64,000 nucleotides of DNA from an uncultured Bacteroidales bacterium (GTDB taxonomy: Bacteria; Bacteroidota; Bacteroidia; Bacteroidales; Paludibacteraceae), in assembly GCA_947164985.1 (NCBI GenBank), contig CAMUYI010000004.1, positions 186,001-250,000 of the forward strand. The letters are read 5' to 3'. Each line of letters starts with the position of its first letter. Position 1 is the stretch's first letter. A model generated the notes under the pieces. That model was not told the origin of the DNA. It worked only from the letters and a program-made list of their open reading frames with translations, and did no database searches. Position numbers and translations under genes: made by a program. Shown in pieces: positions 5,372 through 63,736 of the stretch.

Positions 5372-5388
5372 ACTGAATACTGAATGCT
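5372..5388 (+). repeat. Short 7-bp array, ACTGAAT unit
   Basis: Two perfect ACTGAAT units and part of a third (GCTCGCC) fill the gap after the DUF3078 stop. The ATG of the next gene (5384) is made from the repeat. Confidence 0.7.
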
Positions 5389-5659
5389 CGCCTTAGACGA
5401 TTTCTCACGCAATGTGCATCTTCTTCTGGAGCGCTATCAGGCGTTGCAGCAGGAGAATGCATCGCTGCGCGAGGATATCGAACGTCAACGGCAAGAACTC
5501 ATTCGTACGCACAGTGAACTGCTGGCGTTGCAGCAACAGAACAAACGTTTGGCAACCGCCAATGCTATGACTTCGGCAGAGAGCAGTGAGGAAGCCCTTA
5601 AGCGTCTCAATGCCCTCATCGCCCAAGTCGATCGCGCTATTAACGCTTTGAAGAAATAA
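5384..5659 (+). CDS. Small coiled-coil protein upstream of zapA, ZapB-like candidate
   Basis: A 91-residue protein predicted to be almost entirely coiled coil, with heptads running through LLLERYQALQQENASLRED and on through RQRQELIRTHSELLALQQQN. It has no signal peptide or membrane segment. It is the same size class as ZapB, the coiled-coil partner of ZapA in gammaproteobacteria, and is immediately followed by zapA. A role in Z-ring assembly is inferred from structure and context only; sequence similarity of coiled coils is weak evidence. The ATG lies inside an ACTGAAT repeat, 15 nt after the previous stop. Confidence 0.7.
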   Translation: MLALDDFSRNVHLLLERYQALQQENASLREDIERQRQELIRTHSELLALQQQNKRLATANAMTSAESSEEALKRLNALIAQVDRAINALKK

Positions 5660-5660
5660 A

Positions 5661-5702
5661 ACTGAATACTGAATACTGAATGCTGAATGCTGAATACTGA
5701 CA
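5661..5702 (+). repeat. 7-bp tandem array, ACTGAAT/GCTGAAT unit, six copies
   Basis: Units in order: ACTGAAT three times, GCTGAAT twice, then ACTGACA. The zapA ATG (5687) is formed within the array, so the first codons of zapA (MLNTD) are repeat-derived. Confidence 0.85.
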
Positions 5703-5980
5703 AGCAACATATAAACCTCCATCTCGATGCCCATACGGTAGGGCTCGATGTGCCGCGTGATCAGGAGGCAAACTACCGCAATGCGGCAGAACTGCTCAAT
5801 AAGCGTTATCAGTATTATCTTCATTTGCGTCCCAACGCATCGGCGGAGCAGTTATGGATGTATACCGCCCTCGAGGTGGCCGTCGCCCTGCAGTCTGATG
5901 CCCGGGAAAAGAGTCTGGTGCCGGTCGAAAAAGCACTCAATGAGTTAAATCAATTAATATTAGAAAAACTGAATCAATGA
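5687..5980 (+). CDS. zapA: Cell division protein ZapA
   Basis: A 97-residue ZapA-family protein; members bind FtsZ and stabilise the Z ring. The N-terminal beta unit [17 protein letters not shown] and the following helix [18 protein letters not shown] fit ZapA, and the C-terminal half is a long helix ([10 protein letters not shown] onward) for tetramerisation. The coiled-coil protein just upstream and rny overlapping by 4 nt (ATGA at 5977-5980) give the zapA-rny order seen in Bacteroidota. The start is uncertain by a few codons because it falls in a repeat array. Confidence 0.85.
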
Positions 5981-7500
5981 TCGTAGCAATTATTTGTGCA
6001 GTAGTCGGTCTCCTCATAGGAGCCGGTATCTACTACCTCATCTCGCGTATCGCTGCCGCTAATCTCATCAAGAAAGCGGAAGAAGAGGCAGAGATGATCA
6101 AGAAGAACAAGATCGTTGAGGCTAAGGAGAAATTCATCGCCCTGAAGTTGGAGCACGACAATAGTGTGCGTGAGCAGGATAAGCGCTTGCAGCAGCAAGA
6201 GCAACGCCTGCAACAACGTGAGCAGCAGCTCAACCAGCGCCAAGGGGATGTACAACGCAGCCTCAATGAAGTGAATCAAAAACTGCAGGCCGTCGAGCAA
6301 CGCCAACAGGCACTCGACTATCGTCAGCAGGAAGTGGATAAGATGCATCATGAGGCGCAACGCCAGTTAGAGCAACTGAGCGGCATGTCAGCTGAAGAGG
6401 CAAAGAAACAACTCGTGGAGTCCCTCAAAGATGAAGCCAAGACGGCAGCCTTGTCTTATATCAACGAGATCATGGATAATGCACGTCTGGAGGCCAATAA
6501 AGAGGCGAAGAAGATCATCATCCAGACCATCCAGCGTGTGTCTTCCGAGACCGCAGCCGAAGCGACCGTCTCTGTCTTCCATATTGAGAATGACGAAGTG
6601 AAGGGTCGTATCATCGGTCGTGAAGGACGTAATATCCGTGCCCTCGAAGCGGCTACCGGTGTGGAGATCGTCGTAGACGATACGCCGGAGGCGATCACCC
6701 TCTCTGCTTTCGATCCCGTACGTCGTGAGATAGCACGTCTGGCGCTGCATCAACTGGTGCAGGACGGTCGTATCCATCCCGCGCGTATCGAAGAGGTCGT
6801 AGCAAAAGTGACCAAACAAGTGGAAGATGAAATCATCGAGGTAGGTAAACGTACGACCATCGATCTTGGTATCCACGGTCTGCATCCCGAACTGGTGCGT
6901 CTGGTCGGTAAGATGAAATACCGTTCTTCGTATGGTCAGAACCTCTTGCAGCATGCTCGTGAGACCGCCAATCTCTGTGCCGCCATGGCCGGTGAACTGG
7001 GTCTGAACGTCAAGGCTGCCAAACGTGCCGGTCTGCTGCACGATATCGGTAAAGTGGCCGACGAAGATGTCGAACTGCCGCACGCAGAACTGGGTATGAA
7101 ACTCTGTGAGAAATACGGAGAGAAACCCGATATCTGTAATGCCGTAGGTGCGCACCATGACGAATGCGAGATGAAGACCATCATCGCACCGATCGTACAG
7201 GCTTGTGATGCTATCTCCGGTGCCCGTCCTGGTGCCCGTCGTGAGATCGTTGAATCATACGTGAAACGTCTCAATGACCTGGAGAACCTCGCGATGTCGT
7301 TCCCGGGCGTTGTGAAGACCTATGCCCTGCAGGCAGGTCGTGAACTGCGCGTCATCGTAGGAGCGGATAAGATCTCCGATAAGGATACCGAACTGCTGTC
7401 CTTCGATCTCGCTAAACGTATCCAGGACGAGATGACCTATCCGGGTCAGATTAAGGTGACCGTCATCCGCGAGGTTCGCGCGGTGAATGTAGCGAAATAA
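5977..7500 (+). CDS. rny: Ribonuclease Y
   Basis: A membrane-anchored endoribonuclease that starts mRNA decay. Residues 1-25 form one membrane helix ([20 protein letters not shown]). A long Gln/Glu/Arg-rich coiled coil runs to about residue 150. A KH RNA-binding domain carries [15 protein letters not shown] (near 208-222), and the HD domain has the metal-binding LLHDIGKV (near 350). The 507-residue length is normal. Its ATG overlaps the zapA stop, so translation is probably coupled. A rho-independent terminator lies 50 nt after the stop, inside the convergent trmN6 gene. Confidence 0.96.
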
Positions 7501-7513
7501 ACGGATTAGTGGA

Positions 7514-8251
7514 TTAGAGGTAAAAATCTCTACACAGATCTTGATAAGGGAGGCTTCTGCCTCCTTTTTCGTCTTCAAGAACGAGGGAGTCTTCTTCAAT
7601 CTTCAATCTTAAATCTTCAATCTTCAATTGAAAAGCCAAAAGCACACGTTTTGGCTTTTTCCCTTCCTTACTATATACGCGCGTGACGTGCGTGAGAAAG
7701 AGGTCCGCTGCGGCAGCGAGTTGGCGGATCTCATTCTCCGCTTCAGCCGGTAGAATCAAGGCTAACTGACCGCCCTCTTGCAATAGACGCGCACTATGCT
7801 GAATCAGTTCGGCATAACTTAGCGTATCCGTATGCCGCGCCATCTCGCGCCCTTTGTCGGGATTCTTAAGGCTGTTCTGAAAATAAGGAGGATTAGATAC
7901 GATTAAATCGTATTTGTAATTTGTGATTTCTGTCGATCGGCAGAGCCGTGGTGATTTGTCATTTTGCCAATCCTGCAATCGTGCTTGGAAAGCACGTATG
8001 CCATTCTCGCAGGCTTGCTCTACGGCTGCGGCATCGATATCGATGCCTTCTACTTCCGCTTCCGGACATCGCTGCATCAGCATGCGTGCGATCAGGCCGC
8101 TACCCGTGCCCACATCGAGAATCCTGTAACCCGTAACCCGTAACCCGTAACCGCTCACCGGTGCCCACGCACCAAGCAGCACGCCATCCGTGCCGACCTT
8201 CATGGCGCATTTGCTATCCTCTATGAAAAACTGCTTAAAGCGAAAGGACAC
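7514..8251 (-). CDS. trmN6: tRNA1(Val) adenine-37 N6-methyltransferase (TrmN6/YfiC family)
   Basis: An SAM-dependent methyltransferase for A37 of tRNA-Val, 245 residues. Visible are the N-terminal FRFKQFFIEDSKCAMKVGTDGVLLGAW typical of this family (in part FKQFFIEDSKCAMKVGTD), SAM motif I ILDVGTGSG, the acidic end of strand 2 (GIDID) and the catalytic NPPYF. It ends in CRDFYL as expected. Two short tandem arrays are translated in frame: a GTAACCC array gives GYGLRVTGYR just before motif I, and a CTTCAAT array gives KIEDLRLKIEE near the C-terminus. Both fall in loops, so the enzyme is probably intact. It lies 13 nt behind the DsbD-like gene. Confidence 0.9.
   Translation of the reverse strand: MSFRFKQFFIEDSKCAMKVGTDGVLLGAWAPVSGYGLRVTGYRILDVGTGSGLIARMLMQRCPEAEVEGIDIDAAAVEQACENGIRAFQARLQDWQNDKSPRLCRSTEITNYKYDLIVSNPPYFQNSLKNPDKGREMARHTDTLSYAELIQHSARLLQEGGQLALILPAEAENEIRQLAAAADLFLTHVTRVYSKEGKKPKRVLLAFQLKIEDLRLKIEEDSLVLEDEKGGRSLPYQDLCRDFYL
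7549..7569 (+). terminator. Terminator of rny, inside the trmN6 reading frame
   Basis: GGAGGC-TTCT-GCCTCC followed by TTTTT (7565-7569). The same bases encode the GGRSLP stretch of trmN6 on the other strand. Confidence 0.85.
7594..7628. repeat. 7-bp tandem array, CTTCAAT unit, five copies in trmN6
   Basis: Five units with one variant (CTTAAAT). Read on the minus strand it encodes a Lys/Ile/Glu/Leu-rich insert near the TrmN6 C-terminus. Confidence 0.85.
8126..8153. repeat. 7-bp tandem array, GTAACCC unit, four copies in trmN6
   Basis: Three GTAACCC units and one GTAACCG. It encodes GYGLRVTGYR just before SAM motif I. The same unit read as GGGTTAC recurs at 24824-24858 in the phosphopantetheinyl transferase gene. 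Confidence 0.85.
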
Positions 8252-8254
8252 GAA

Positions 8255-8285
8255 TTCTTAATTCTTAATTTTTAATTCTTAATTC
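8255..8285. repeat. 7-bp tandem array, TTCTTAA unit, four copies
   Basis: TTCTTAA twice, TTTTTAA, TTCTTAA, then TTCGG. It spans the gap between the DsbD-like gene and trmN6 and supplies the last codons (ELRIKN and stop) of the former. Confidence 0.8.
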
Positions 8286-9002: not shown

Positions 9003-9030
9003 AAAATTGTCCTTTTTGCAAAATCGGCTG

Positions 9031-9061
9031 CAAAATTACAAAAATATTTTGATATATGCAA
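9031..9061 (-). promoter_or_regulatory. Promoter of the DsbD-like/trmN6 operon
   Basis: Minus-strand TTGCATATATCAA starts at 9061 and TAATTTTG lies at 9038-9031, 23 nt from first T to TA. Its -33 element is the same DNA as the -33 of the gcvP promoter, read on the other strand. Confidence 0.8.
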
Positions 9062-9078
9062 ATTTTTTTGTACCTTTG
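9049..9078 (+). promoter_or_regulatory. Promoter of the gcvP operon
   Basis: TTGATATATGCAA from 9049 and TACCTTTG at 9071-9078 (22 nt from first T to TA). The leader is only about 33 nt, so there is no room for a glycine riboswitch. Confidence 0.8.
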
Positions 9079-9117
9079 CAGCCGCAAAGGTTTTGGAATA
9101 CAAACGAACACATATAT

Positions 9118-11934: not shown

Positions 11935-11935
11935 G

Positions 11936-12868
11936 ATGAAGTCGAATCAGAAATTGCGTGAACAACTGCAGCATTACCGGCGTTTCCTGCCTTGGATAAC
12001 GCTTAAGGAGCTGCTGATGATCGTTCTCTGTACTATTCCTTATGCGTTGACGGTCAATCAGTTACTTGTGCCGCATGCTATCGTAGGCGGCGGCGTGACG
12101 GGTTTATGCGAGATCATCTATTTCGCGACGGACACGTATGTCCCGATCTGGCTCAGCAGCGCCGTCATCAATGTGGTCTTGCTCGTCATCGCGACGCTCA
12201 CCGTCGGATGGCATTATGCGCTGCGGACGGTATGGGGTGTGCTCTGGCTCACGGTATGGCTGAAGGTCATACCAATCGCTCCGGTACCGCTACTTACCGA
12301 TTCCTTCATGGCGGTCGTCGTAGGAGGTCTGTTCACCGGCTGTTTCCTCGGTATATGCTTCCTCAATAATGGTTCTACAGGCGGTACGGACATCATCGCC
12401 ATGATCGTCAATAAGTACCATCATCTGCCTATGGGACGTGTGCTCATGTTTGCCGATATGACCGTTATCTCCTCCGCTTTCTTCCTGCCTACGATCCAAG
12501 CGGCAGGCATGCAGAGCGCGATCGAGAAGATCCTCTTCGGTCTCACCTATACCTTCATGTTTTCTACGGCGGTGGACTGGGTGATGAACCGAATGCGGCA
12601 GTCCGTGCAGTTCATGATCTTCACGCAGAAACCCGATGAGATAGCTGAAGCCATCATCACGCAGGCGCATAGGGGATGTACCTTCCTCGATGCCCAGGGC
12701 GGCTATAACAAGAAGCCTATGAAAGTGGTCACCTGTATTGCCCGCTCCTATGAGTCGGCTACGATCTTCCGTCTCGTGCGTGCCATCGATCCGAATGCCT
12801 TCGTCAGCCAGAGTCAGGTACGTGGTGTTTTCGGCCAAGGCTTCGACCCTATGGCGAACGGCAAATGA
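11936..12868 (+). CDS. YitT family membrane protein, first copy
   Basis: A 310-residue protein with five or six membrane helices in the N-terminal part (DUF161) and a cytoplasmic C-terminal DUF2179 domain of about 80 residues. The hallmark glycine-rich segments are present: PHAIVGGGVTGLCEIIYF and NNGSTGGTDIIAMIVNKY. The family is common but has no settled transport substrate. It starts 1 nt after the gcvP stop and is followed by a paralogue 33 nt downstream, so all three genes probably form one transcript. Confidence 0.88.
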   Translation: MKSNQKLREQLQHYRRFLPWITLKELLMIVLCTIPYALTVNQLLVPHAIVGGGVTGLCEIIYFATDTYVPIWLSSAVINVVLLVIATLTVGWHYALRTVWGVLWLTVWLKVIPIAPVPLLTDSFMAVVVGGLFTGCFLGICFLNNGSTGGTDIIAMIVNKYHHLPMGRVLMFADMTVISSAFFLPTIQAAGMQSAIEKILFGLTYTFMFSTAVDWVMNRMRQSVQFMIFTQKPDEIAEAIITQAHRGCTFLDAQGGYNKKPMKVVTCIARSYESATIFRLVRAIDPNAFVSQSQVRGVFGQGFDPMANGK

Positions 12869-12870
12869 TA

Positions 12871-12901
12871 ACTGAATACTGAAAACTGAATACTGAAAAC
12901 T
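12871..12901 (+). repeat. 7-bp tandem array, ACTGAAT/ACTGAAA unit, four copies
   Basis: ACTGAAT and ACTGAAA alternate twice, then ACT. It fills the gap between the two YitT genes and shares its unit with the arrays around zapA. Confidence 0.85.
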
Positions 12902-13879: not shown

Positions 13880-13898
13880 CAAAAAAATGCGCAAAAAT

Positions 13899-13929
13899 TT
13901 GCGTATGTGAAAAAAAAGCAGTACTTTTG
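13899..13929 (+). promoter_or_regulatory. Promoter of tRNA-Ser(CGA)
   Basis: TTGCGTATGTGAA from 13899 and TACTTTTG at 13922-13929, spacing 23 nt. Confidence 0.85.
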
Positions 13930-15475: not shown

Positions 15476-15478
15476 ACA

Positions 15479-16845: not shown

Positions 16846-16852
16846 TAGAGAA

Positions 16853-19236: not shown

Positions 19237-20563
19237 TCGCGACATACTTCGGCTCGCCATACCCAGTATCTTGGCGAACATTACCATCCCCCTTGTGGGA
19301 ATAGTCGATACCGCTATCGTCGGGCATCTGAGTGATGCTGCGGCGATAGGCGGTATCGCCATCGGTACGATGCTCTTTGACTTGCTGTACTGGAACTTCG
19401 GTTTCCTGCGGGTCGGAACGTCCGGCCTTACGGCGCAGGCGTTTGGCAGCAGTCAGCATTCAGCAGTCAGTATTCAGACTCCTCCGGAGTGCCGTAAGAT
19501 CCTCACGCAGAGCCTCACGATCGCGCTGCTGGCGGCGTTTGCTATCTGGGCGATCCAATGGTTGTTTGTGACGGCGGTACTGGCTATCGTCCCTTGTTCG
19601 GCAGAAGTGGCGGCAGTGGCCCGCGATTATTTTTTCGTGCGCATATGGGCGGCGCCTGCGACGATGATGCTTTTTACCTTCAAGGGCTGGTTCATCGGCA
19701 TGCAGGATACGAAAAGTCCGATGGCGGTCGATATCCTGGTCAATGTGGTGAACATGGCCGCCAGTTATTACCTCGCCGTTCATACGCCGCTGGGCGTAGT
19801 GGGCGTGGCGTACGGTACCCTCATCGCGCAGTACAGCGGACTGACGCTGGGTATCGGTATCCTGTGTATCAAGTACGGCATCATTCATATCGGTCTCAAG
19901 GAGATCATCGCTGCGATGCAGTGGCCGGAGATTCGACGCATGATGGCGCTGAACGGCAATATTTTCATCCGTTCGCTCTGTTTCATGGTTGTCTATGTGG
20001 GCTATACCAGCCTGGCGAGTCAGTACGGCGATACCGAACTGGCGGTTAGCAGCATTATGATGAAGCTCTTTATGTTCTTCTCCTTCTTCGTGGACGGTTT
20101 TGCCTATGCCGGCGAAGCGTTGGTGGGGAAGGCGTTTGGGGAATTAAAAATTAAAAATGAAGAATTAAAAATTGACGAGATCGTGCGTCACCTCTTTATG
20201 TGGGCGATAGGAGTAGGACTGCTTTTCTCCTTGATCTACGGCGTGTTGGGGCGTGCGAATATTGAAATGATGACCAGTGATGAGACGGTGATAGAAGCTG
20301 CGATGCAATATATCGGATGGCTGATTGCCATGCCGCTCATCAGTGCGCTGGCCTTTATGTGGGACGGCGTTTATATAGGTGCTACGGCCGGCAAACAGAT
20401 CCGCAATGCGATGATCTGGGCTGCTGTCGGTTTTGTAGCAGGCTATTTGCTTACGTATCGTTGGCTCGGTGCGCAGGCACTTTATATCGGTTATTTCGCG
20501 CATTTGATAGCGCGATCGGTTTATTTGAGTGTAGAATGGGGAAAATTGAAAATTGAAAGGTGA
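19223..20563 (+). CDS. MATE family efflux transporter (DinF/NorM type)
   Basis: A 446-residue cation-coupled multidrug or toxin exporter of the inner membrane with 12 predicted helices in two bundles. Family marks include PSILANITIPLVGIVDTAIV in helix 1, and GTSGLTAQAFG. The GTG start overlaps the pectinesterase end. Two tandem arrays are read in frame in loops: one gives SSQHSAVSIQT (near residue 77) and the other ELKIKNEELKID (near 308), the central cytoplasmic loop. Both lie in loops between helices, which would be tolerated. A membrane fusion protein and RND pump follow directly. Confidence 0.9.
   Translation: MQNSNRDILRLAIPSILANITIPLVGIVDTAIVGHLSDAAAIGGIAIGTMLFDLLYWNFGFLRVGTSGLTAQAFGSSQHSAVSIQTPPECRKILTQSLTIALLAAFAIWAIQWLFVTAVLAIVPCSAEVAAVARDYFFVRIWAAPATMMLFTFKGWFIGMQDTKSPMAVDILVNVVNMAASYYLAVHTPLGVVGVAYGTLIAQYSGLTLGIGILCIKYGIIHIGLKEIIAAMQWPEIRRMMALNGNIFIRSLCFMVVYVGYTSLASQYGDTELAVSSIMMKLFMFFSFFVDGFAYAGEALVGKAFGELKIKNEELKIDEIVRHLFMWAIGVGLLFSLIYGVLGRANIEMMTSDETVIEAAMQYIGWLIAMPLISALAFMWDGVYIGATAGKQIRNAMIWAAVGFVAGYLLTYRWLGAQALYIGYFAHLIARSVYLSVEWGKLKIER
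19453..19480. repeat. 7-bp tandem array, TCAGNNN unit, four copies in the MATE gene
   Basis: Units TCAGCAT, TCAGCAG, TCAGTAT, TCAGACT, encoding the loop segment QHSAVSIQT. Confidence 0.75.
20143..20177. repeat. 7-bp tandem array, ATTAAAA unit, five copies in the MATE gene
   Basis: ATTAAAA twice, ATGAAGA, ATTAAAA, ATTGACG. Encodes LKIKNEELKID in the central loop. Confidence 0.85.
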
Positions 20564-20579
20564 AAGTTGAAAGGATGAA
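20544..20579 (+). repeat. 7-bp tandem array, AATTGAA unit, at the MATE/fusion-protein junction
   Basis: AATTGAA twice, AGGTGAA, AGTTGAA, AGGATGA. It carries the MATE stop (20561) and the ATG of the next gene (20575). Confidence 0.8.
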
Positions 20580-21597
20580 AGGGATTTATTATATATTCTT
20601 ATTAGCACTGCTTTTTTTTGGCTCGTGCTCAAAGCATGACAATGCCCAACGGGAACAGGCGCCTATCAAGGTGAAGACGATGACCGTGGCACCGCATACC
20701 GGTGGAACGGTGTCGCGTTATGTGGGAACGATTGAACCTGCGCACAGTACACCGCTTAGCATGCAGACCACAGGTCGAGTAGTCTCGATTGCGGTGAAGA
20801 ACGGTCAGCGTGTGACGAAAGGTCAGACGCTCTTGGAGGTCGATAACACGCAGGCGATGAATACCCTCCGTACCGCTGAGGCTTCGTTACGTCATGCCCA
20901 AGACGGTCATGACCGCGTGGCAAAGGTGCATGACAAAGGTGTCGTCTCCGACCAGAAGATGGTGGAGATCGAGAGCCAATTAGCCCAAGCGCAGTCTCTC
21001 TACGAAGCCGCTCAACAACAACTCAAAGAGTGTACCCTCACCGCGCCATGTGACGGCATCGTCGATGGCCTCAATATGGCGGTCGGTCAGACTGTTCTGC
21101 CCGGTACAACCCTCTGTTCGATCGTCGATATCCGTGCGTTCAGTGTGCGCTTCACCGTTCCCGAAGCGGAGATCGGTGCCTTACCGGACAAAGGGCAAGT
21201 CGTTTGTGAAGCGATCCATGCCGAACTGCCGATCACGATTACCGAACGTGGTATCAGTGCGAATCCCCTCACGCATACCTATGAGGTCGTAGCCGACATC
21301 CAAGGCAAGGCCGACGGACTGAAGGTAGGTATGGTGGCTGTGGTGAGAATTCAGAATTCAGAAATCAGCAATCAGAAGTCAGATATCGTCATACCTGCGA
21401 ATTGTGTGTTGCTCAAACCTGAAGGATCGACGGTATGGGTAGTGGAAGACGGCAAGGCTGCGCGTCGATTCGTCACCGTGGACGGCTACCAAGCGGACGG
21501 CGTACGTATCACAGCCGGACTGCAAGAAGGAGACATCCTGATCACCGAGGGGTATCAGAAACTTTACAACGGCTGTAAAATTATTTGTGATTTGTAA
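20575..21597 (+). CDS. RND efflux membrane fusion lipoprotein (HlyD/AcrA family)
   Basis: A 340-residue periplasmic adaptor linking the RND pump to an outer-membrane channel. The ATG at 20575 gives a lipoprotein signal (MKGIYYIFLLALLFFGSCS) with cysteine in FGSC; a GTG five codons earlier is possible. The biotinyl-lipoyl hairpin is seen in GRVVSIAVKNGQRVTKGQTL and LTAPCDGIVDGLNMAVGQTV, with a coiled-coil hairpin between them. A 7-bp array near residue 260 is translated as VRIQNSEISNQKSD in a beta-barrel loop. It is followed after 15 nt by the pump gene. Confidence 0.92.
   Translation: MKGIYYIFLLALLFFGSCSKHDNAQREQAPIKVKTMTVAPHTGGTVSRYVGTIEPAHSTPLSMQTTGRVVSIAVKNGQRVTKGQTLLEVDNTQAMNTLRTAEASLRHAQDGHDRVAKVHDKGVVSDQKMVEIESQLAQAQSLYEAAQQQLKECTLTAPCDGIVDGLNMAVGQTVLPGTTLCSIVDIRAFSVRFTVPEAEIGALPDKGQVVCEAIHAELPITITERGISANPLTHTYEVVADIQGKADGLKVGMVAVVRIQNSEISNQKSDIVIPANCVLLKPEGSTVWVVEDGKAARRFVTVDGYQADGVRITAGLQEGDILITEGYQKLYNGCKIICDL
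21346..21387. repeat. 7-bp tandem array, AGAATTC unit, six degenerate copies in the fusion-protein gene
   Basis: AGAATTC twice, AGAAATC, AGCAATC, AGAAGTC, AGATATC, all in frame. Confidence 0.8.
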
Positions 21598-21610
21598 TTT
21601 GTCATTTGTA
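21583..21610 (+). repeat. 7-bp tandem array, ATTTGTN unit, four copies at a gene junction
   Basis: ATTTGTG, ATTTGTA, ATTTGTC, ATTTGTA. It contains the fusion-protein stop and reaches the TTG start of the RND gene. Confidence 0.8.
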
Positions 21611-24684: not shown

Positions 24685-25234
24685 CGATATGACCCTATGT
24701 ACGGAGGCAGAGGTGCAACGCATGCTGCCTTTGGTCAGTGACCAGCGACGCGAACAGGCGCTAAAGTACAAGCACACGTTCGGGCAGTTTTGTTGCCTCA
24801 AATCATGGCTTATGCTCAAAGAGGGGTTAGAGGTTATGGGTTACGGGTTACGGGATTTTTACTACAACGAGCACGGAAAACCCTATTTGGAAGGCGGACC
24901 GTATTTTAGCATCAGTCATTGCAAAGCCGGTATTGCCGTAGCGATCGATGACCAACCGATAGGGATTGATATCGAGACCATCCGGCATGCGAATGAGGAC
25001 CTGATCGAACGAACGATGAATGAGCAGGAGCGAGTAGGGATGGATGATCGTACGTTCACACGCCTCTGGACGCAGAAAGAGGCTATCGTTAAGGCTGAAG
25101 GGACGGGGATCATGTCTTTTGAACAACTCCAAAAGACATTAATGGAAAGTGGAAAGTGGAAAGTGGAAAGTTTTGAGAAAGACAATTATATATACAGTAT
25201 AGCATATGGACAATTATGTAGTATCGGCGCGTAA
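24665..25234 (+). CDS. 4'-phosphopantetheinyl transferase, Sfp type
   Basis: This enzyme moves phosphopantetheine from CoA to a carrier-protein serine. The 189 residues show the three family motifs: PYFSISHCKAG, IGIDIETIR (Mg-binding Asp and Glu near 100) and FTRLWTQKEAIVKAEGTG (near 135-150). Two 7-bp arrays are translated in frame: LEVMGYGLRDF near residue 57 and MESGKWKVESF near 160. The gene overlaps the pump upstream (20 nt) and dnaX downstream (29 nt), so it is embedded in the operon. Carrier-protein partners are not in the window; it may serve fatty-acid ACP. Confidence 0.9.
   Translation: MRIKIFDDMTLCTEAEVQRMLPLVSDQRREQALKYKHTFGQFCCLKSWLMLKEGLEVMGYGLRDFYYNEHGKPYLEGGPYFSISHCKAGIAVAIDDQPIGIDIETIRHANEDLIERTMNEQERVGMDDRTFTRLWTQKEAIVKAEGTGIMSFEQLQKTLMESGKWKVESFEKDNYIYSIAYGQLCSIGA
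24824..24858. repeat. 7-bp tandem array, GGGTTAC unit, five copies in the transferase gene
   Basis: GGGTTAG, AGGTTAT, GGGTTAC twice, GGGATTT. Same unit family as in trmN6 (8126-8153). Confidence 0.8.
25143..25170. repeat. 7-bp tandem array, TGGAAAG unit, four perfect copies in the transferase gene
   Basis: Four identical TGGAAAG units, encoding ESGKWKVES. Confidence 0.88.
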
Positions 25235-30886: not shown

Positions 30887-30916
30887 ATTGTTAAATTGTA
30901 AATCGTAAATTGTAAA
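30885..30916 (+). repeat. 7-bp tandem array, AAATTGT unit, four copies
   Basis: AAATTGT, AAATTGT (one extra T between), AAATCGT, AAATTGT between yceD and rpmF. Confidence 0.75.
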
Positions 30917-30921
30917 ATATT

Positions 30922-31104: not shown

Positions 31105-31140
31105 TGAAAAATGAAAGGGAAAAGTGAAAGGTGAAAGGTG
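31105..31140 (+). repeat. 7-bp tandem array, TGAAAGG unit
   Basis: TGAAAAA, TGAAAGG, a gap, then TGAAAGG twice, right after the rpmF stop. Confidence 0.7.
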
Positions 31141-36020: not shown

Positions 36021-36036
36021 TTGTTGTACAACGTAC

Positions 36037-36104
36037 AAAAAAGAAGGTTGTCTCCCGACAACCAAATCTTTTCATTTAACCTTAAATCTAATACCATGAA
36101 AAAC
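36037..36104 (-). ncRNA. Candidate small RNA of about 68 nt
   Basis: A full promoter (36141-36111) and a strong terminator GGTTGTC-GGGA-GACAACC plus TTCTTTTTT (36063-36037) bracket about 68 nt with no convincing reading frame; the only ATG would read through the terminator. A 5' stem TTTTCAT/ATGAAAA can form. The 3' end is the terminator hairpin. It follows the usp stop but has its own promoter. The 307-bp gap 35899-36205 holds this unit, the second hairpin and the tRNA promoter. No known RNA family is recognised. Confidence 0.6.
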
Positions 36105-36110
36105 ACGATG

Positions 36111-55576: not shown

Positions 55577-55590
55577 GGTATCTATAAAAA

Positions 55591-55620
55591 TTTTCAATTT
55601 TCAATTTTCAATTTTCAATT
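55591..55620. repeat. 7-bp tandem array, TTTTCAA unit, four copies
   Basis: Four perfect TTTTCAA units plus TT, between pssA and the endonuclease gene. The pssA stop codon (55615-55617) is inside it. Confidence 0.88.
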
Positions 55621-56319
55621 CTTCTTGACGCAGGCAAGAAGCAGATTCAAGGTCACGTACCATAAGATACATCCCGTACCGCTGAAGAATGCAAACTCGA
55701 TATGCTGATGCATAATGGCCTTGGCAATGCAATAACCCAGAATAATCAAACAACCTGCTAAGAAGCTGATTATCACCGTTTTCTCTTTCTTGAATGTCTT
55801 AAAACTGAAGAACGGAATCTCGGCGTTCAGCAGGTAACAACTCAATAACGATACACCGATTAATACCCACGCCATCCAGTCGTACGTTAACACGGAAATG
55901 GGCAGACTGCAGATACCGCCCCAGAAGATGGCGTTGGCAGGAGTAGCCAGACCAATAAACGAATCGTGCTGACGCTCATCTACATTGAATTTAGCCAAAC
56001 GAAGAGCTGAGAAAGCGGCCATCAGTAACGCGATCAAAGCCCACCAACCCAAGATCGGACGCAGATAGCAGAAAAGCATCATTGCTGGTGCCAACCCAAA
56101 GGTGATATCATCTGCCAACGAATCCAACTGGATACCTATCGGACTCGGAGCCTTCAGCAAACGGGCACTCAGACCGTCAAAGAAATCAAAGAAGGCACCC
56201 GCCAAAATGAAGATGAATGCCCATAGAAAAGCACCTTGAGTCGCTAAAAAAACCGCAATACTGCCGCAAAGCAGGTTACAACTGGTGATGGCATCAGGAA
56301 TAATTCGTTTGCAATTCAT
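55615..56319 (-). CDS. pssA: CDP-diacylglycerol-serine O-phosphatidyltransferase
   Basis: A 234-residue membrane enzyme that makes phosphatidylserine, the precursor of phosphatidylethanolamine. The CDP-alcohol phosphotransferase signature DG-x2-AR-x8-G-x3-D-x3-D is complete in FFDFFDGLSARLLKAPSP and GIQLDSLADDITFG (near residues 44-72). About eight helices. It overlaps the AmpG-like gene by 4 nt. The last codons and stop are supplied by a repeat array. Confidence 0.95.
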   Translation of the reverse strand: MNCKRIIPDAITSCNLLCGSIAVFLATQGAFLWAFIFILAGAFFDFFDGLSARLLKAPSPIGIQLDSLADDITFGLAPAMMLFCYLRPILGWWALIALLMAAFSALRLAKFNVDERQHDSFIGLATPANAIFWGGICSLPISVLTYDWMAWVLIGVSLLSCYLLNAEIPFFSFKTFKKEKTVIISFLAGCLIILGYCIAKAIMHQHIEFAFFSGTGCILWYVTLNLLLACVKKN

Positions 56320-57560
56320 AATTTTCTATATACTAAATAAGTAACTATTATCGAAGGAATACAACAAGCCATGACGATCCAGAAAAATCCCAGATAGCCT
56401 ATGGCTTCTTGTATATAACCGGCTATCATTCCCGGTAACATCAATCCAAGGAACATAAAGGCTGTGCAGATTGAGAAATGCGCCGTCTTATGACTTCCGT
56501 CCGCAACCCGCATCATATACAGCATACATGCCGTGTAACCAAGGCCGTAACCTAACTGCTCAATACCCACGCAAAGGCTTAAAATCCAGAATGCCGTAGG
56601 CTGATGTTGGGCAAAATAGACATAAACGATACAAGGTAAGGTCAAGCATAGCGCCATAGGAAGAATGGCCTTCTTCAGACCTGTCTTACTGGCCCATATA
56701 CCGCCTCCGATACCGCCCAGCAACATCAGCACGACGCCGATACCGGTGATCTGACCGATCGTGTCCACGCTGATACCCAGACCGCCTGCTTCGCGTGCCG
56801 CCAGGAAGAACGGATTGCATAACTTGAGCAATAAGGCTTCCGGGAGTCGGTAAAGCAACATAAAACAGAGCGCTAAGATAATCTCCGGTTTGCGGAAAAA
56901 CTCCACCCAAACCATCCCGATCTCGCGCCATATATCTTTAAACTTCAAACTTTCAACTTTCAACTCTACAGCCGGCATGCTCCACGTGTGCCAAAGCGCA
57001 ATCAGAGCCAAGATGGCGCTGCAAAGGAGTAGGGCATAGGTCCACGATGTCGAGATGTCCGTGCGTTTTTGCAACCATCCCACGATCATCAGCAACAGCG
57101 ATTGACAGAAAATATTGGCGATGCGGTAAAACGTAGAACGTAAACCGACATATGCCGATTGATCGTGCTCATTCAGCGCAATCATATAATAACCGTCCGC
57201 TGCGATGTCATGTGTCGCGGAGCAGAAAGCGGTGATAGTGAATAAGATAAGGGCGATCGTGAAATGTCCTTGTGGCGCTAACCATGCCAATAACGCAACC
57301 GTTACTGCCATTAGAATCTGCATCGTCAAAACCCACCATCGTTTGGTGCGTAGCACATCGACGAACGGACTCCAGAGCGGTTTGACTACCCAAGGAAAAG
57401 CAATCAGCGAGGTGAACAAAGCCATCTCGCTATTCGGTACGCCCAGCTGCGCAAAAAGCGTTATGCTGATGCTTGTAACCAAAAAGTATGGGATACCTTC
57501 CGCCAAATACAGCGTAGGCACCCATACTAATGGTGATATATTCCTTATATTATTACGCAC
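56316..57560 (-). CDS. AmpG-like MFS transporter (muropeptide permease family)
   Basis: A 414-residue 12-helix major facilitator. Similar to AmpG: PTLYLAEGIPYFLVTSISI, AFPWVVKPLWSPFVD, FCSATHDIAADGYYM, and a glycine-rich second half with GIEQLGYGLGYTACMLYMM. AmpG imports anhydro-muropeptides for cell-wall recycling, which fits a neighbourhood of envelope genes, but the exact substrate is inferred. A 7-bp array is read in frame as VELKVESLKFKD in the central cytoplasmic loop. It lies 8 nt after the ppiD-like gene. Confidence 0.86.
   Translation of the reverse strand: MRNNIRNISPLVWVPTLYLAEGIPYFLVTSISITLFAQLGVPNSEMALFTSLIAFPWVVKPLWSPFVDVLRTKRWWVLTMQILMAVTVALLAWLAPQGHFTIALILFTITAFCSATHDIAADGYYMIALNEHDQSAYVGLRSTFYRIANIFCQSLLLMIVGWLQKRTDISTSWTYALLLCSAILALIALWHTWSMPAVELKVESLKFKDIWREIGMVWVEFFRKPEIILALCFMLLYRLPEALLLKLCNPFFLAAREAGGLGISVDTIGQITGIGVVLMLLGGIGGGIWASKTGLKKAILPMALCLTLPCIVYVYFAQHQPTAFWILSLCVGIEQLGYGLGYTACMLYMMRVADGSHKTAHFSICTAFMFLGLMLPGMIAGYIQEAIGYLGFFWIVMACCIPSIIVTYLVYRKL
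56941..56968. repeat. 7-bp tandem array, AACTTTC unit, four copies in the AmpG-like gene
   Basis: AACTTCA, AACTTTC twice, AACTCTA; in frame in the central loop. Confidence 0.75.
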
Positions 57561-57568
57561 GCGCGCGC

Positions 57569-59569: not shown

Positions 59570-59610
59570 TTTTGTATATTAAACTTTAAATTTTAATCTT
59601 TCAACGTTAA

Positions 59611-61029
59611 TTACCATTTCTCGTTCGTCGAATAGTAGATATATGCAGCACCTTTACCTACGGTTTCAACGGTTCCGTTGTAGTTGGTGATTTTTCCGCG
59701 TAACACAACGAAATCACCTACTGCTACTTGGTCCGCACTCGTTAGTTTCTGCTTGTTCTTTCCGTATACCTGGTATGCCTCAAACGAAATGCTCGCGGTC
59801 GTACCGTCGTTCGTCGGGGTAATAAAGAACGTACCGTTACCAAAAGAAGTCACGCCGCTCGCATGGTTGCTATGTAACTTACTAACCCAACCTTTTATAT
59901 AATACTCATCCGTTGTTGTCTTTCCGCTACCGATCGAGTCGCCGATATGCAATGCCTCATAAACGGTCAGCGTGCCTTCGGGCACATCTGCGCCTTCCGG
60001 ATCAGGAGTGATCTTCGTCGGGTCTGCAGGTTGGAATGCCTCGTTAAACTTCTCGTTGCTCGACGAATAGATATAGGCCGTACCCTTGCCCGTAGTCTCT
60101 GCTGTTCCGTTATAGTTGGTGATTTGTCCGTAGATAACTACGAAGTCACCTACCTCTACTTGGTCCGGGCTGGTCAACTTCTTGCCGTCCTTACCATATA
60201 CTTGGAATGCCTCAAACGTAACGCTCTCGGTCGTTCCATCGTTCGTCGGAGTGATATAGAATGTTCCGTTTCCATATTGATTAACACCGTCAGCGTGCTT
60301 ACTATCAATACGACTTACCCAACCCTTAATATAATACTTCTCCTGAGTTGTATTGCCGCTACCGAGCGATTCGCTGATCTCGCGAGCCTTATATACGGTA
60401 ATAGCACTTTCCGGTACTTCTACACCTGCCGGATCCGGAGTCACGTTTGTTGAGTCAATCGGACGGAAAGCGTTATTATAAGCTTCGTTGTTGGAAACCT
60501 CGATCGAACATTGACCATTATTCTCGATCGTACCGTCATAGTTCTGGATCTTGCATTTCACTACAATGAAATCACCGATTTGCAGCACGTCATGGCTCGG
60601 TAACTTAGCTCCGCCTCTACCTAATACGCGGTAGCAGTAGAAATCTTTCATACCCAGGCCGTCTTGACGAGCACTCAGGTGTACATAGTCATTGCCGTAT
60701 TGCGCAAAACTGGTTTCCCAATCAGGTTTACTCTTGCTGCGAGCTGCTTCGTCGAAATTACGAACCCAACCTTTGATGTAATACGTTTCCTCTGTCGTTT
60801 GTCCATATGCCAATTTCTGACCGATCTTTACAGCTTCGTTTACGTTAATAGCCCCTTCCGGAATCTCAATACCATCGGGATCCGGAGACGGAGTAGGATC
60901 TGCGAACTCAGGAATCGTGTCACCTTGCACAAGATCATTATTGCCCGGAGTCGCGATATAAGGAGGCTCTTCACAACTAATCATCATCAGCGATACCAAC
61001 GCCATCAATGCGAATAATTTCGTTTTCAT
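59611..61029 (-). CDS. Lipoprotein with three DUF6359 (OB-fold-like) repeats
   Basis: A 472-residue lipoprotein; the ATG at 61029 gives signal MKTKLFALMALVSLMMISC with the lipobox cysteine. Three tandem modules of about 130 residues each carry YYIKGWV, an ITPTNDGTT-like or related strand, a YRVLGRGG/FQVYGKDG turn, and a VGDFVV segment followed by ITNYNGT. The second and third are most alike; the first is diverged. DUF6359 modules in Bacteroidota are predicted OB-like folds on secreted proteins and often accompany endonuclease or CotH-type proteins. Ligand unknown. It is first in the operon toward pssA. Confidence 0.85.
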   Translation of the reverse strand: MKTKLFALMALVSLMMISCEEPPYIATPGNNDLVQGDTIPEFADPTPSPDPDGIEIPEGAINVNEAVKIGQKLAYGQTTEETYYIKGWVRNFDEAARSKSKPDWETSFAQYGNDYVHLSARQDGLGMKDFYCYRVLGRGGAKLPSHDVLQIGDFIVVKCKIQNYDGTIENNGQCSIEVSNNEAYNNAFRPIDSTNVTPDPAGVEVPESAITVYKAREISESLGSGNTTQEKYYIKGWVSRIDSKHADGVNQYGNGTFYITPTNDGTTESVTFEAFQVYGKDGKKLTSPDQVEVGDFVVIYGQITNYNGTAETTGKGTAYIYSSSNEKFNEAFQPADPTKITPDPEGADVPEGTLTVYEALHIGDSIGSGKTTTDEYYIKGWVSKLHSNHASGVTSFGNGTFFITPTNDGTTASISFEAYQVYGKNKQKLTSADQVAVGDFVVLRGKITNYNGTVETVGKGAAYIYYSTNEKW

Positions 61030-61074
61030 ATGTGTATAATTTAAGATTTTCACGTTTTATCTCAAAATAGCGTG

Positions 61075-61105
61075 CAAAGATACGAAAAATATTTCACGCG
61101 CGCAA
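61075..61105 (-). promoter_or_regulatory. Promoter of the DUF6359-ppiD-ampG-pssA operon
   Basis: Minus-strand TTGCGCGCGTGAA from 61105 and TATCTTTG at 61082-61075, spacing 23 nt. Confidence 0.82.
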
Positions 61106-61142
61106 ATAATTTAAGAAAAAAGTAAAAAAAAATGCATTTTCC

Positions 61143-61173
61143 TTGCGTATGTCAAATATTTGTTGTAATTTTG
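61143..61173 (+). promoter_or_regulatory. Promoter of the infC-rpmI-rplT operon
   Basis: TTGCGTATGTCAA from 61143 and TAATTTTG at 61166-61173, spacing 23 nt. Transcription should start near 61180. Confidence 0.88.
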
Positions 61174-61256
61174 CACGCTTTTTCGATGGTGGGGCAACGT
61201 GTGCACGCACGAGAAAGCGCAATATTAACCATATAATAGTTAAAACAATCGCTACT

Positions 61257-61805
61257 ATTCCTCCAAGACCACGTGGTGGTCGAGTAATCAAAGAAGATCC
61301 GCATCGTATCAACGACAAGATCCGCGGTGTGGCTCAAGTGCGCCTTATTGGCGACAATGTAGAGCAGGGTATCTACACGTATCAGCAGGCTATGAAAATA
61401 GCGGACGACCAGAATCTTGACCTCGTCGAGATCGCTCCAACGGCTACGCCGCCTGTCTGCCGCGTCATTGACTACCAGAAGTTCCTCTACGCACAGAAGA
61501 AAAAACAAAAAGAGGCGAAGGCTAATCAGAAAAAACAAGAGGTGAAAGAGATCCGGTTCGGTCCGCAAACGGATGACCACGATTATAACTTCAAACTCAA
61601 ACACGCCATCGAGTTCCTCAAAGAAGGCAACAAAGTGAAGGCTTACGTCTTCTTCCGCGGACGCTCTATCGTGTTCAAAGAGCAGGGTGAACTCCTGTTG
61701 GCACGCTTCGCTGCTGACCTGGCCGAGTACGGCAAACCTGACAATGTACCAAACCTCGAGGGCAAACGAATGATCATGTTCATCAGCCCGAAGAGTCAGA
61801 AGTAA
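61257..61805 (+). CDS. infC: Translation initiation factor IF-3, probable ATT start
   Basis: IF-3 binds the 30S subunit and checks start-codon choice. Both domains are clear: [20 protein letters not shown] and [19 protein letters not shown] in the N-domain, [32 protein letters not shown] and [13 protein letters not shown] in the C-domain. No ATG, GTG or TTG lies in frame between the promoter and the conserved region; an upstream in-frame start overlaps the -33/-7 region and would not be transcribed. ATT at 61257 (followed by [19 protein letters not shown]) is the best start, as in E. coli infC, where AUU allows autoregulation. Other rare codons (61224, 61248) are possible. About 182 residues. 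Confidence 0.9.
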
Positions 61806-62092
61806 TCGTTCCCGCAAGGGATAAGAAATAAGTACTAAACAAGGACCAACCGTTAGTTATTAGTTGGTTGTTACTTAGTTATTAGTTAGATATTAAGCCG
61901 TCCGAAGGCTTACCTTTAAATTGGCGCCCAATGTTCGGGGTCCCCGGCGCAAACCAGCGTAAGCGTTTGTGATGGGGAGAGCGAGCAAGCCCGAGTACCT
62001 TTAGCCAAGCTGTGCTTGAGCTCGTGTACGAGGGGATTGAGCGCGAGTGCTGCCTATCGGACGAATTATTAACAATTAAATATTATTACAAA
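61806..62092 (+). other. Structured leader between infC and rpmI, candidate ribosomal-protein control region
   Basis: The 287-nt gap can form several stems: TCCC-GCAA-GGGA just after infC, CCAAC/GTTGG, AAGCC/GGCTT, GCGCC/GGCGC around 61930-61950, and CTCGT/ACGAG near 62030. ACCTTTA occurs twice. GC content is far higher than in other gaps here. L20 represses rpmI-rplT through RNA in this place in E. coli and Bacillus; a similar role here is inference. No known family was matched by eye. Confidence 0.6.
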
Positions 62093-62290
62093 ATGCCAAA
62101 GGTAAAAACGAACTCCGGTGCAAAAAAGCGTTTCACGCTTACCGGAACCGGTAAAATCAAGCGTAAGCACGCTTACAAGAGTCACATTCTGACGAAGAAG
62201 ACTAAAAAGCAAAAACGCAACTTGACTCATGTTGCTATTGTTGATCAGACGAACATGCGCTCCATCCGTGAGATGCTGCTGCTTCGTTAA
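62093..62290 (+). CDS. rpmI: 50S ribosomal protein L35
   Basis: A 65-residue basic ribosomal protein: [20 protein letters not shown] then [20 protein letters not shown], as in all L35. The ATG at 62093 is fixed by homology; the frame is open further upstream into the leader. It precedes rplT by 33 nt in the universal infC-rpmI-rplT order. Confidence 0.98.
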
Positions 62291-62323
62291 GTGTTAAACC
62301 ATCTAAAGTGAAAGGACAAGAAA

Positions 62324-62683
62324 ATGCCAAGATCAGTTAATCACGTTGCTTCGCGCAACCGTCGCAAAAAGATCATGAGCCTTACCCGTGGTAACTTTGG
62401 TGGCCGCGCTAATGTATGGACCGTAGCAAAGAACACATGGGAGAAAGGTTTGCAGTACGCTTACCGCGATCGTAAGAACAAAAAACGTACGTTCCGCGCT
62501 CTCTGGATCCAGCGTATCAACGCCGCTGCTCGCCTCGAAGGCCTGAGCTACAGCCAGTTGATGGGTTGCCTCAAGAAAGCAGGAATCGTCATCAACCGCA
62601 AGGCACTTGCTGACCTCGCGATGAACCAACCCGCTGCCTTCAAAGCAGTCGTTGATCAAGCGAAAAAGAAAGCTGCCAAGTAA
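62324..62683 (+). CDS. rplT: 50S ribosomal protein L20
   Basis: A 119-residue ribosomal assembly protein: [19 protein letters not shown], a long basic helix ([20 protein letters not shown]), and [17 protein letters not shown] with the C-terminal RNA-binding domain. In other bacteria this C-terminal domain represses the operon. The last codons and stop are part of a segment that is duplicated downstream (62728-62772). Confidence 0.98.
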
Positions 62684-62772
62684 GGTTTCTTAATCGAGTA
62701 AGTGCAAACTTACGAGAAGAAGACTTACTGCCAAGTAAGGTTTAATCGAGTAATCTTGTATTACGAGAAGAA
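62673..62772 (+). repeat. Direct duplication of the rplT 3' end with tandem hairpins
   Basis: Copy one (62673-62722) and copy two (62728-62772) share CTGCCAAGTAAGGTTT, AATCGAGTAA and TTACGAGAAG. Each can form a hairpin: GTAAG-TGCAAA-CTTAC in the first, GTAAT-CTTGT-ATTAC in the second. The changed base pair is compensated, and the loops differ. Confidence 0.8.
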
Positions 62773-62788
62773 ACAACCGTAGGTTAAT

Positions 62789-62802
62789 CATCTAGCTAGA
62801 TG
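62789..62802. repeat. Perfect palindrome downstream of rplT
   Basis: CATCTAGCTAGATG, 14 bp, 15 nt before the terminator stem. Function unknown. Confidence 0.55.
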
Positions 62803-62816
62803 TTCTTACAAAAACG

Positions 62817-62844
62817 AGAGATGGTCATTTGGCCATCTCTTTTT
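62817..62844. terminator. Bidirectional terminator between rplT and dapA
   Basis: Stem AGAGATGG with CCATCTCT, loop TCATTTGG, then TTTTT; an A run precedes it for the opposite strand. The dapA stop codon (62825) is in the loop. Confidence 0.88.
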
Positions 62845-63736
62845 GTATTTCTTCTTGCAAATCTTTGCTTGCCGGAACAAGTGGCAATCTCAGGTAATTC
62901 TGTATGATTCCTTTTTGTGCCAGTACTGCCTTTATTCCTACCGGATTACCCTCTTTGAAGAGCAGTTTGACCATATTGTCGTACTGCACTTGTTTAGCTT
63001 GGTCCTTTTTATGCACGATATCATAGAAATCTTCCGGGAAAGCGTTGCTTGCTACCGAAATCAATCCTGCACCTCCTGCTTCCATGATCTCGCAAGCGAT
63101 ACCATCATCTCCTGAAATAACAAGGAATGGTAATTCTTCATTTTTAATTTTTAATTTTGAATTGGCAAGAGCGATCAAATCTTTGATTTGAGCGATATTG
63201 CCCGACGCTTCTTTGATGCCGGCGATCTTATCCGGCTGCGCCTCATAGATGCGCATAACGGTTTCCGGCAGCAGATTGACACCCGTGCGCCCGGGGACAT
63301 TATAGAGTATAACCGGTACAGGACTTGCTTCGGCTACCGCACAGAAATGTTGGTATAATCCTTCCTGATTCGGTTTATTGTAGTACGGACATACGCTAAG
63401 GATAGCGGTATAGTCTAGGATTAGTACGTCGCGCATAGCTTGTAGGTCCGAGATGACTTGCTGCGTGTTATTGCCGCCGACACCTAAGACGAGCGGTATG
63501 TTCTGACCGTTTGGAAGAGGGTGCTGCTTGGTGTATTGAACGATAAACTCTCTCACTTCGCGTTTTTCCTCTGTGATCATCGTCGCCGCTTCGCCCGTGG
63601 TACCCAATACCACGATATAATCGACGGAACCCGTTAATTGCGTGTCCAGTAAGCGTGCAAGTGCCTCGTAATCTACGCTTTTATCAGCCTTGAACGGCGT
63701 GATAAGTGCTGTGCCAAGTCCCCTTAATTCCTTCAT
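62825..63736 (-). CDS. dapA: 4-hydroxy-tetrahydrodipicolinate synthase
   Basis: A 303-residue TIM-barrel aldolase joining pyruvate and aspartate semialdehyde in lysine and diaminopimelate synthesis. The Schiff-base lysine is K175 in GIKEASGN; YNVPGRTGVNL holds the active-site tyrosine; VLGTTGEAATM binds pyruvate. The ATG at 63736 (MKELRGLGTALITPF) is chosen over a GTG six codons upstream. A 7-bp array is translated in frame as LANSKLKIKNEELPF about 20 residues after the catalytic lysine. Confidence 0.96.
   Translation of the reverse strand: MKELRGLGTALITPFKADKSVDYEALARLLDTQLTGSVDYIVVLGTTGEAATMITEEKREVREFIVQYTKQHPLPNGQNIPLVLGVGGNNTQQVISDLQAMRDVLILDYTAILSVCPYYNKPNQEGLYQHFCAVAEASPVPVILYNVPGRTGVNLLPETVMRIYEAQPDKIAGIKEASGNIAQIKDLIALANSKLKIKNEELPFLVISGDDGIACEIMEAGGAGLISVASNAFPEDFYDIVHKKDQAKQVQYDNMVKLLFKEGNPVGIKAVLAQKGIIQNYLRLPLVPASKDLQEEIQKEMAK
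63130..63164. repeat. 7-bp tandem array, TTAATTT unit, in dapA
   Basis: TTCATTT, TTAATTT twice, TGAATTG; encodes KLKIKNEEL, almost the same peptide as the MATE array. Confidence 0.8.

Follow-up and report, generated by a model that had tools for sequence, protein, structure and literature searches.

How can one and the same seven-base unit come to stand in tandem at unrelated places of a chromosome, in the spacers between genes as well as inside enzymes? The question is raised by a 64-kb stretch of DNA (the window) from an uncultured, gut-type Bacteroidales bacterium of the Paludibacteraceae, which corresponds to positions 186001-250000 of contig 4 in a 2.6-Mb draft genome of 57 contigs (G000) and which carries many short heptamer arrays at gene junctions and within genes. 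Several bacteria are known to carry heptamer repeats, for which no mechanism has been given; in the present case many relatives have alignable sites, so that gain, loss and replacement can be counted. We consider it probable (roughly 0.6) that the dispersed heptamer arrays result from copying between loci out of a lineage-specific set of units, together with slippage by whole units, and that the outcome is filtered by selection.

Abundance and period of the arrays

Arrays were detected with Tandem Repeats Finder (TRF) and with a stricter lag-match scan, and the expectation was taken from local third-order Markov shuffles (10 for the window). With TRF, period 7 was detected at 26 separate places of the window (at two of these with just 2.1 copies), and the lag-match scan returned 20 arrays versus a shuffle mean of 0.1 (maximum 1). 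For other periods the same scan gave two arrays of period 8, one each of periods 9 and 10, and three of period 11. The original prediction had spoken of more than twenty arrays of 7-9 bp, occurring every 2-3 kb. Its estimate of abundance stands, the 7-9 bp label does not, as the arrays are mainly of period 7, and the spacing is in fact uneven: the stricter scan finds no period-7 array from 31,140 to 55,585, where TRF gives two weak ones (46,327 and 54,845). The units that it had placed at several distant sites were recovered there, namely an ACTGAAT-type unit at 5661 and 12866, GTAACCC/GGGTTAC at 8126 and 24824, and an ATTAAAA-like unit at 16851, 20142 and 63131.

A genome-wide repeat search, which had been proposed as a check, was run on 462 kb of G000 (18% of the genome) and yielded 108 period-7 arrays, versus 0.33 in shuffles, that fall into 48 unit classes. 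That the arrays are real and genome-wide in G000 is thereby confirmed, and by extrapolation the whole genome would contain around 600 of them. Longer periods were also represented in the 462 kb (period 8, 23 versus 1.0; period 9, 9 versus 0; period 11, 17 versus 0; period 15, 10 versus 0), and arrays of period 5 or 6 were absent from it. The closest named RNase Y matches to G000 are metagenome-assembled genomes (MAGs) of Paludibacteraceae/Bacteroidales, mostly from rumen samples, and with near relatives of this kind an artefact of metagenome assembly has to be considered. Such an origin is hardly credible, given that genomes assembled separately from one another have arrays at matching sites, where these are in frame with conserved proteins.

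Position of the arrays relative to genes

Using home-made gene calls for the 462-kb sample, we found 51 of the 108 arrays in gaps between co-directional genes, which make up 6.6% of the bases. The remaining 57 comprised 48 inside genes (44%), three in divergent and two in convergent gaps, and four at ends or overlaps. Among co-directional gaps, those of 20-49 bp held an array in 24 of 55 cases and those of 0-19 bp in one of 42, and spacer arrays often fill a gap of 24-48 bp. As had been predicted, many begin a few bases from the stop codon of one gene and finish at the start of the next. The bases of the stop codon match the array register in 57, 60 and 80% of cases (35 arrays), versus 28, 36 and 45% in shifted registers. 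A stop is present on the coding strand of the unit in 43 of the 51 co-directional spacer arrays versus 14 of the 48 in-gene arrays, a contrast that is partly one of ascertainment, because stop-free arrays at gene ends get called as gene. Of the 51 spacer arrays, 31 have a stop in each of the three frames, versus 16 when the reverse strand is read.

These figures could be read as the mark of spacer cassettes that are selected for stops in three frames or for tuning the translation of the next gene, with period 7 preferred since 7 is not divisible by 3. The coding-strand stops and their excess over the reverse strand speak for this reading, as does the similar orientation rule followed by the TAACTGA repeats of other bacteria, as far as the account in PMC4679880 extends. 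We nevertheless regard it as very improbable: the 48 arrays inside genes have no such role, 15 of 35 spacers of 25-60 bp that lack an array likewise have stops in every frame, the orientation bias is partly ascertainment, units and presence vary between close relatives, and the rule of three leaves the absence of period 5 unexplained.

The in-gene arrays translate in frame, giving peptides such as LKIKNEEL, GERLKVKGER, MENGKWKM, LSTFNFQL and GLRVTGYR, and those of the window are placed between conserved protein segments. An in-frame stop is avoided by one altered copy of the unit, and the alteration is often alike, for instance AAT GAA in KIKNEEL and TTA in GERLKVK. In an AlphaFold2 model of one protein, the TrmN-like one (mean pLDDT, the predicted local distance difference test, of 73.9, and ~70 at the array sites), the arrays (residues 29-42 and 210-218) lie mostly outside helices and long strands. 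The identities of the genes at the window arrays were checked for ZapA, HlyD, the ACPS-type phosphopantetheinyl transferase, DHDPS (dapA), the YitT pair, MatE and pectinesterase; the trmN6-like gene is named with reserve, as its TrmN-like match scores under the curated cut-off of the family.

The same sites in relatives

For eight in-gene sites of the window we compared 71 orthologous segments. A period-7 array is present in 29 of them, of which three share the unit of the window array (at most one mismatch, same strand); the L035 segment at 7593, which has the shared unit on the other strand, was counted as different. Two more in-gene sites of the window had one orthologue (dapA) and none (56936). 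At the TrmN-like loop site 8119 an array is present in 7 of 12 relatives, in all cases with units other than GGGTTAC, and the loop is short in two species (CPIGSK, CPTGTR). The same loop holds inserts without a period-7 signal in L034 and L039 (ITPPYPSPQGRG; VEPLPAPLLKRG) and heptamer arrays in other species. At the ygiQ site 27492 an array is found in six of eight relatives, none with the AATGGAA unit.

When all species were used as reference in turn, 366 of 372 ordered pairs, which are not independent of each other, passed the filters. Arrays stood on both sides in 149 pairs, with 20 of the 149 sharing a unit within one mismatch; 92 pairs were shorter, and 125 were of similar length without an array. 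A high score was obtained at lag 7 in 149 of 334 segments, at lag 8 in 37, and at each of the remaining lags between 4 and 12 in 0-6. Relatives with identical arrays at all loci would have spoken against a copying process; what was found is gain, loss and replacement. The presence of a different array, or none, at the sites of relatives makes it likely that arrays are copied between places and do not only grow locally.

The closest comparison is offered by genomes G043 and G044, of which loci L032 and L033, respectively, are 95.9% identical in nucleotide sequence over 12.4 kb (compared by BLAST chains, as the full-length MAFFT alignment was poor). The syntenic sample of this pair contains 34 co-directional spacers with a length of 10 bp or more, and a spacer was taken to have an array if period 7 was detected in either genome. 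The 11 array spacers have identities of 0.10-0.93 (median 0.44), versus a median of 0.94 for the 23 array-free ones (Mann-Whitney p = 0.007), and identity is under 50% in 7 of 11 versus 5 of 23. In one spacer GTCAATCGTCAAT-type repeats stand opposite TAATTATTAATTATT, with almost identical genes on either side, and the same spacer can hold differing units between genes of 91-97% protein identity. No constant target duplication was noticed when filled and empty array sites of this pair were inspected by eye. As a separate observation, a promoter-like TTGCATATGTGCAAAAAAAGCAGTACCTTTGCA and its variants occur at many sites in both genomes (L169 3980-4060, L170 7575-7670 and others).

In one alternative slippage acts purely locally: every array would be a minisatellite grown from a 7-mer of its own site, with replication favouring a 7-bp step and mutation blurring the units. 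Slippage does act as well, as in-gene copy changes of 21 bp (trmN6-like) and 42 bp show, both of them keeping the frame; in addition, some arrays read on from the final bases of the gene upstream of them (Y 6123 / X 9108), and the register of the stop codons mentioned above also speaks for this alternative. Differing units at the same spacer between closely similar genes speak against it.

Sharing of units between loci

The units of different arrays are far more alike than chance would have it, contrary to what slippage alone predicts: unit collision within G000 is 0.043, versus 0.0012 for flanking 7-mers (~35-fold), and in G015, G043 and G044 it is 0.055, 0.023 and 0.028, versus 0.0016-0.0018 for flanks. 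The sharing extends to irregular unit orders. Irregular 28-mers are common to 13 array pairs, versus a mean of 2.1 and a maximum of 7 in 200 shuffles of unit order, and shared irregular words of at least 20 bases lie above every such shuffle. Outside genes the 28-base sharing amounts to 6, versus a mean of 1.0 and a maximum of 5 (400 shuffles), and inside genes to 3 versus 0.3. This sharing probably arises by copying. The sets of units, or dialects, differ between G000 and G015 (p = 0.0002) and not between G043 and G044 (p = 0.49); the unit AAAGTCG, for example, occurs in none of 108 arrays in G000 versus 9 of 74 in G015. A grammar of the units, in which TGA/TCA, GAAA and TGAA are enriched and TA is depleted relative to letter shuffles, was set aside as evidence: TA is often depleted in genomes, and we therefore build no claim on it.

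A longer element is dispersed as well. A 60-bp sequence of TTGACGA-like units, taken from G043, has 23, 26 and 24 matches in G000, G043 and G044, some of them partial, two in G045 and none in G015 and G048; none of the matches listed falls within the window. Its start coincides with the end of a stop codon in 9 of 24 examined loci (of 75 matches; at most 7 independent). In five of the other loci the stop is provided by the element itself, through its first or second TGA; in seven the stop ends 1-31 bases before the start, and in three there is none within 60 bases. Some of the elements are arranged as inverted pairs, and nine loci with the element gave no Rfam match up to E 0.1.

The dispersal of so irregular an element, like the shared unit orders, counts against slippage as the sole process. 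The absence of period-5 and period-6 arrays and the presence of MutS (25 of 25 genomes, with a full-length MutS gene inside the window) are likewise contrary to a generally loose replication. We therefore consider local slippage on its own unlikely.

The precise junction with the stop codon and the inverted pairs could instead point to a mobile system acting in trans, in which a transposase or reverse transcriptase would place miniature elements built of heptads, in the manner of REP doublet forming hairpins (REPINs) and small dispersed repeats. The G043-derived element is up to 97% identical in G000, the RNase Y genes of the two genomes being ~84% identical, which also speaks for such a system. 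However, no dedicated copying enzyme was found among the tested candidates (RVT_1, Y1_Tnp, Ku), and matches to the first two, which were rejected as agents, do not follow array richness across genomes. For Y1_Tnp there is one sub-cut-off match in G000, none in the array-rich G015 and G006 (these genomes being incomplete), and weak matches above cut-off in the array-rich G003 and G022; RVT_1 has none in the array-rich G006, G003 and G022 (again incomplete genomes), and none of 25 genomes gave a match to Ku. An origin of the element from viruses or plasmids was dismissed as well, viral contigs having no exact match to its 29-base core and plasmids no match by blastn. Array ends are not established as fixed, target duplication was not seen by eye in G043/G044, and orthologues share the element at one locus (L204, L205, L210), so not all copies are recent. 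Considering all this, a trans-acting mobile system seems quite unlikely.

A copying model and the points against it

In the model that we prefer, each lineage would have its own shared set of units, out of which arrays would be copied from locus to locus; the arrays would also change length where they stand, by whole units. They would survive mainly where inserts do little harm, that is, in operon spacers, which allow a stop-bearing unit to overlap the stop codon of a gene, and in tolerant stretches of enzymes, where mostly the stop-free strand would be read in frame; the positions of the arrays are probably set by selection rather than by targeting. As a process, replication template switching or ectopic gene conversion is the favoured candidate, with the stop-like TNA end of the unit possibly serving as microhomology. 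The suggestion of the original prediction that a copying or insertion mechanism may act gains support from the unit sharing, the irregular orders, the dispersed 60-bp element and the replacement at sites, the copying itself being deduced from these.

Several points weigh against this model. Copying is not seen as an event, and there is no demonstrated donor-recipient pair or target duplication. The positions depend on the home-made gene calls, and the surplus of stop-bearing strands in spacers, being partly ascertainment, and the all-frame stops of array-free spacers diminish what the spacer arrays can tell. The stop-avoiding changes common to in-gene arrays could be convergent. Sharing of 18-base words (86) is inside the shuffle range (maximum 94), in-gene sharing at 20 bases is reached by 10 of 400 shuffles, and the shared 26-base words are mostly of AAAAATT-type units, on which independent slippage could converge more easily. 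In G043/G044, 7 of 23 array-free spacers also lie below 0.6 identity, some low-identity ones among them being due to gene-start calls, other inserts or sub-threshold arrays. Finally, 58 orthologue pairs gave five array-tagged gaps, of which one is a multiple of 7 residues and the other four are short gaps or replaced loops.

A bolder version, in which a heptamer vocabulary specific to each lineage would be written genus-wide into gene ends and protein loops by copying, faster than the genes diverge, seems to us more doubtful than not.

Individual arrays and further elements

The arrays of the window are listed in Table 1. At gathering scores Rfam gave no match over them; elsewhere in the window, RF04319, a Bacteroidetes family of paralogous small RNAs (FopS), matches 36034-36106 on the minus strand.

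Table 1. Arrays of the window and a second dispersed element of G000.
Array	Position	Strand	Location	Peptide or remark
ACTGAAT, 6.6 units	5658..5703	+	overlaps end of gene 5384-5659 and spacer before zapA (5687-5980)	
in-frame array	7593..7628	-	trmN6-like gene	QLKIEDLRLKIEE; mostly predicted loop
in-frame GGGTTAC	8119..8160	-	trmN6-like gene	PVSGYGLRVTGYR; mostly predicted loop
AAGAATT	8253..8285	-	between DsbD-like and trmN6-like genes	
AACTGAATACTGA	12866..12901	+	whole yitT-yitT spacer (12869-12901, nothing else) plus stop codon	
AATTAAA	16849..16883	+	within 39-bp spacer ahead of pectinesterase gene	
in-frame array	19445..19477	+	MATE gene	GSSQHSAVSIQT; 90%-identical G015 orthologue has KGERLKEKGERV at this site
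in-frame AATTAAA	20142..20168	+	MATE gene	ELKIKNEELK
GAAAATT/GAAAGGT	20541..20573	+	spans MATE end, reaches start of HlyD-type gene	
in-frame array	21344..21383	+	HlyD-type gene	VRIQNSEISNQKS
ATTTGTN	21581..21609	+	end of HlyD-type gene, ahead of ACR_tran efflux gene	
in-frame GGGTTAC	24825..24856	+	phosphopantetheinyl transferase gene	GLEVMGYGLRDF
in-frame TGGAAAG	25141..25171	+	phosphopantetheinyl transferase gene	LMESGKWKVES
ATTGTAA	26906..26937	+	fills spacer from dnaX-like gene to ygiQ	
in-frame AATGGAA	27492..27530	+	ygiQ	IMENGKWKMENC
TAAATTG	30892..30918	+	directly 3' of stop codon	
GTGAAAG	31114..31140	+	upstream of pseudouridine synthase gene	
AAAATTG	55585..55622	-	overlaps one gene's stop, fills spacer to next gene	
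in-frame GAAAGTT	56936..56967	-	MFS transporter gene	VELKVESLKFKD
in-frame AATTAAA	63131..63163	-	dapA	NSKLKIKNEELP
TTCCCATAAGA/AAGTATATATATAC element of G000	L116 17276-17372; L125 15356-15460; L128 19659-19763			

The last row of the table concerns a second dispersed element, in which an 11-bp TTCCCATAAGA-type array lies beside a 15-bp AAGTATATATATAC-type repeat. The 11-bp unit CCGACGGTCAA forms arrays at four loci of G000 (L113 4606, L116 4675, L120 18614, L130 3684), three of them called coding.

The first loci of two relatives had suggested a period specific to each species (8 bp in L058 of G041, 10 bp in L063 of G042). In a wider sample G041 has 19 period-7 versus 10 period-8 arrays, whereas G042 has 12 of period 10 versus 5 of period 7, so that the idea holds for G042 only. 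The 10-bp arrays of G042/L063, CTAAACNACNCT, are accompanied by 193 exact matches of an 18-base pattern covering two units, with one strand per contig among the matches listed first. In L058, positions 7426-7854 hold a cluster of 8-bp arrays, ACGACRYR, whose variation is mostly limited to three positions. L036 has no period-7 array in 21.5 kb, and the sample of G047, to which it belongs, has two arrays in 34.8 kb, which is too small and patchy to judge density.

Relation to known repeats

Cyanobacterial short tandemly repeated repetitive (STRR) heptamers are dispersed 7-bp tandem units, and the arrays of G000 resemble them in the broad sense that period 7 is over-represented genome-wide. They differ in that STRR unit types are few per genome (three in Calothrix, cited in PMC4692102) and in that the passages on STRR heptamers in the same paper show no in-frame use in enzymes. 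According to that work, heptameric repeats are over-represented in many bacteria, and GGGAATC of Xanthomonas and GGGGA(T/C)T of Nostoc are, like the present arrays, over-represented in intergenic DNA; those units are G-rich and of quadruplex type, whereas the units of G000 are mostly AT-rich and diverse.

The nearest precedent is formed by the TAACTGA direct repeats of Beggiatoaceae, some Cyanobacteria and five Bacteroidetes (MacGregor 2015, PMC4679880), among which Paludibacter propionicigenes has two sets. As described in the relevant sections of that paper, they too are few-unit heptamer arrays, mostly intergenic and often just 5' of a start codon, that overlap upstream stops, with the stop-bearing strand outside genes and the opposite strand inside; gain and loss between relatives and 7-nt indels were already reported, and mobility was suspected without a mechanism. 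Unlike in G000, the TAACTGA system has one favoured unit, similar heptamers being rarely repeated in the genome surveyed, and its in-gene copies are mostly at protein ends or in hypothetical proteins, again to the extent of that account. G000 by contrast has its many unit classes, arrays in frame in conserved enzymes, and units that are replaced in relatives; no rotation or complement of TAACTGA is among its 48 period-7 classes in the 462 kb.

Rickettsia palindromic elements are dispersed in frame in unrelated proteins. The same holds for the palindromic amphipathic repeat coding elements (PARCELs), which, as described in PMC2996958, encode 25-residue amphipathic domains with dyad symmetry in open reading frames without assigned function; the peptides of G000 are short, heptamer-derived and in conserved enzymes. 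Cyanobacterial small dispersed repeats and REPINs are likewise very small, dispersed and apparently mobile, and the available account links REPINs with REP-associated tyrosine transposases (RAYTs; PMC3116915), whereas the arrays of G000 are tandem repeats without a link to a Y1 transposase. For heptamer repeats in Bacteroidetes/Bacteroidales the literature searched gave only PMC4679880, and among the titles listed none dealt with the genus of G000 or, for its family, with such repeats, subscription work being mostly outside that search. What is new relative to known heptamer arrays is the diversity of units, their in-frame use in conserved enzymes and their replacement by other units.

Significance

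For the proteins of this group, short low-complexity peptides such as LKIKNEEL and GERLKVKGER call for caution, as they are repeat-derived. If copying is the correct explanation, it would rapidly supply conserved enzymes with novel peptide segments and operons with novel spacers, by means of mobile-like DNA that is merely 25-60 bp long. Should the more far-reaching version with genus-wide writing of repeats apply, conserved enzymes would carry interchangeable loop peptides encoded by heptamers, and operon spacers would be rewritten between sister species.

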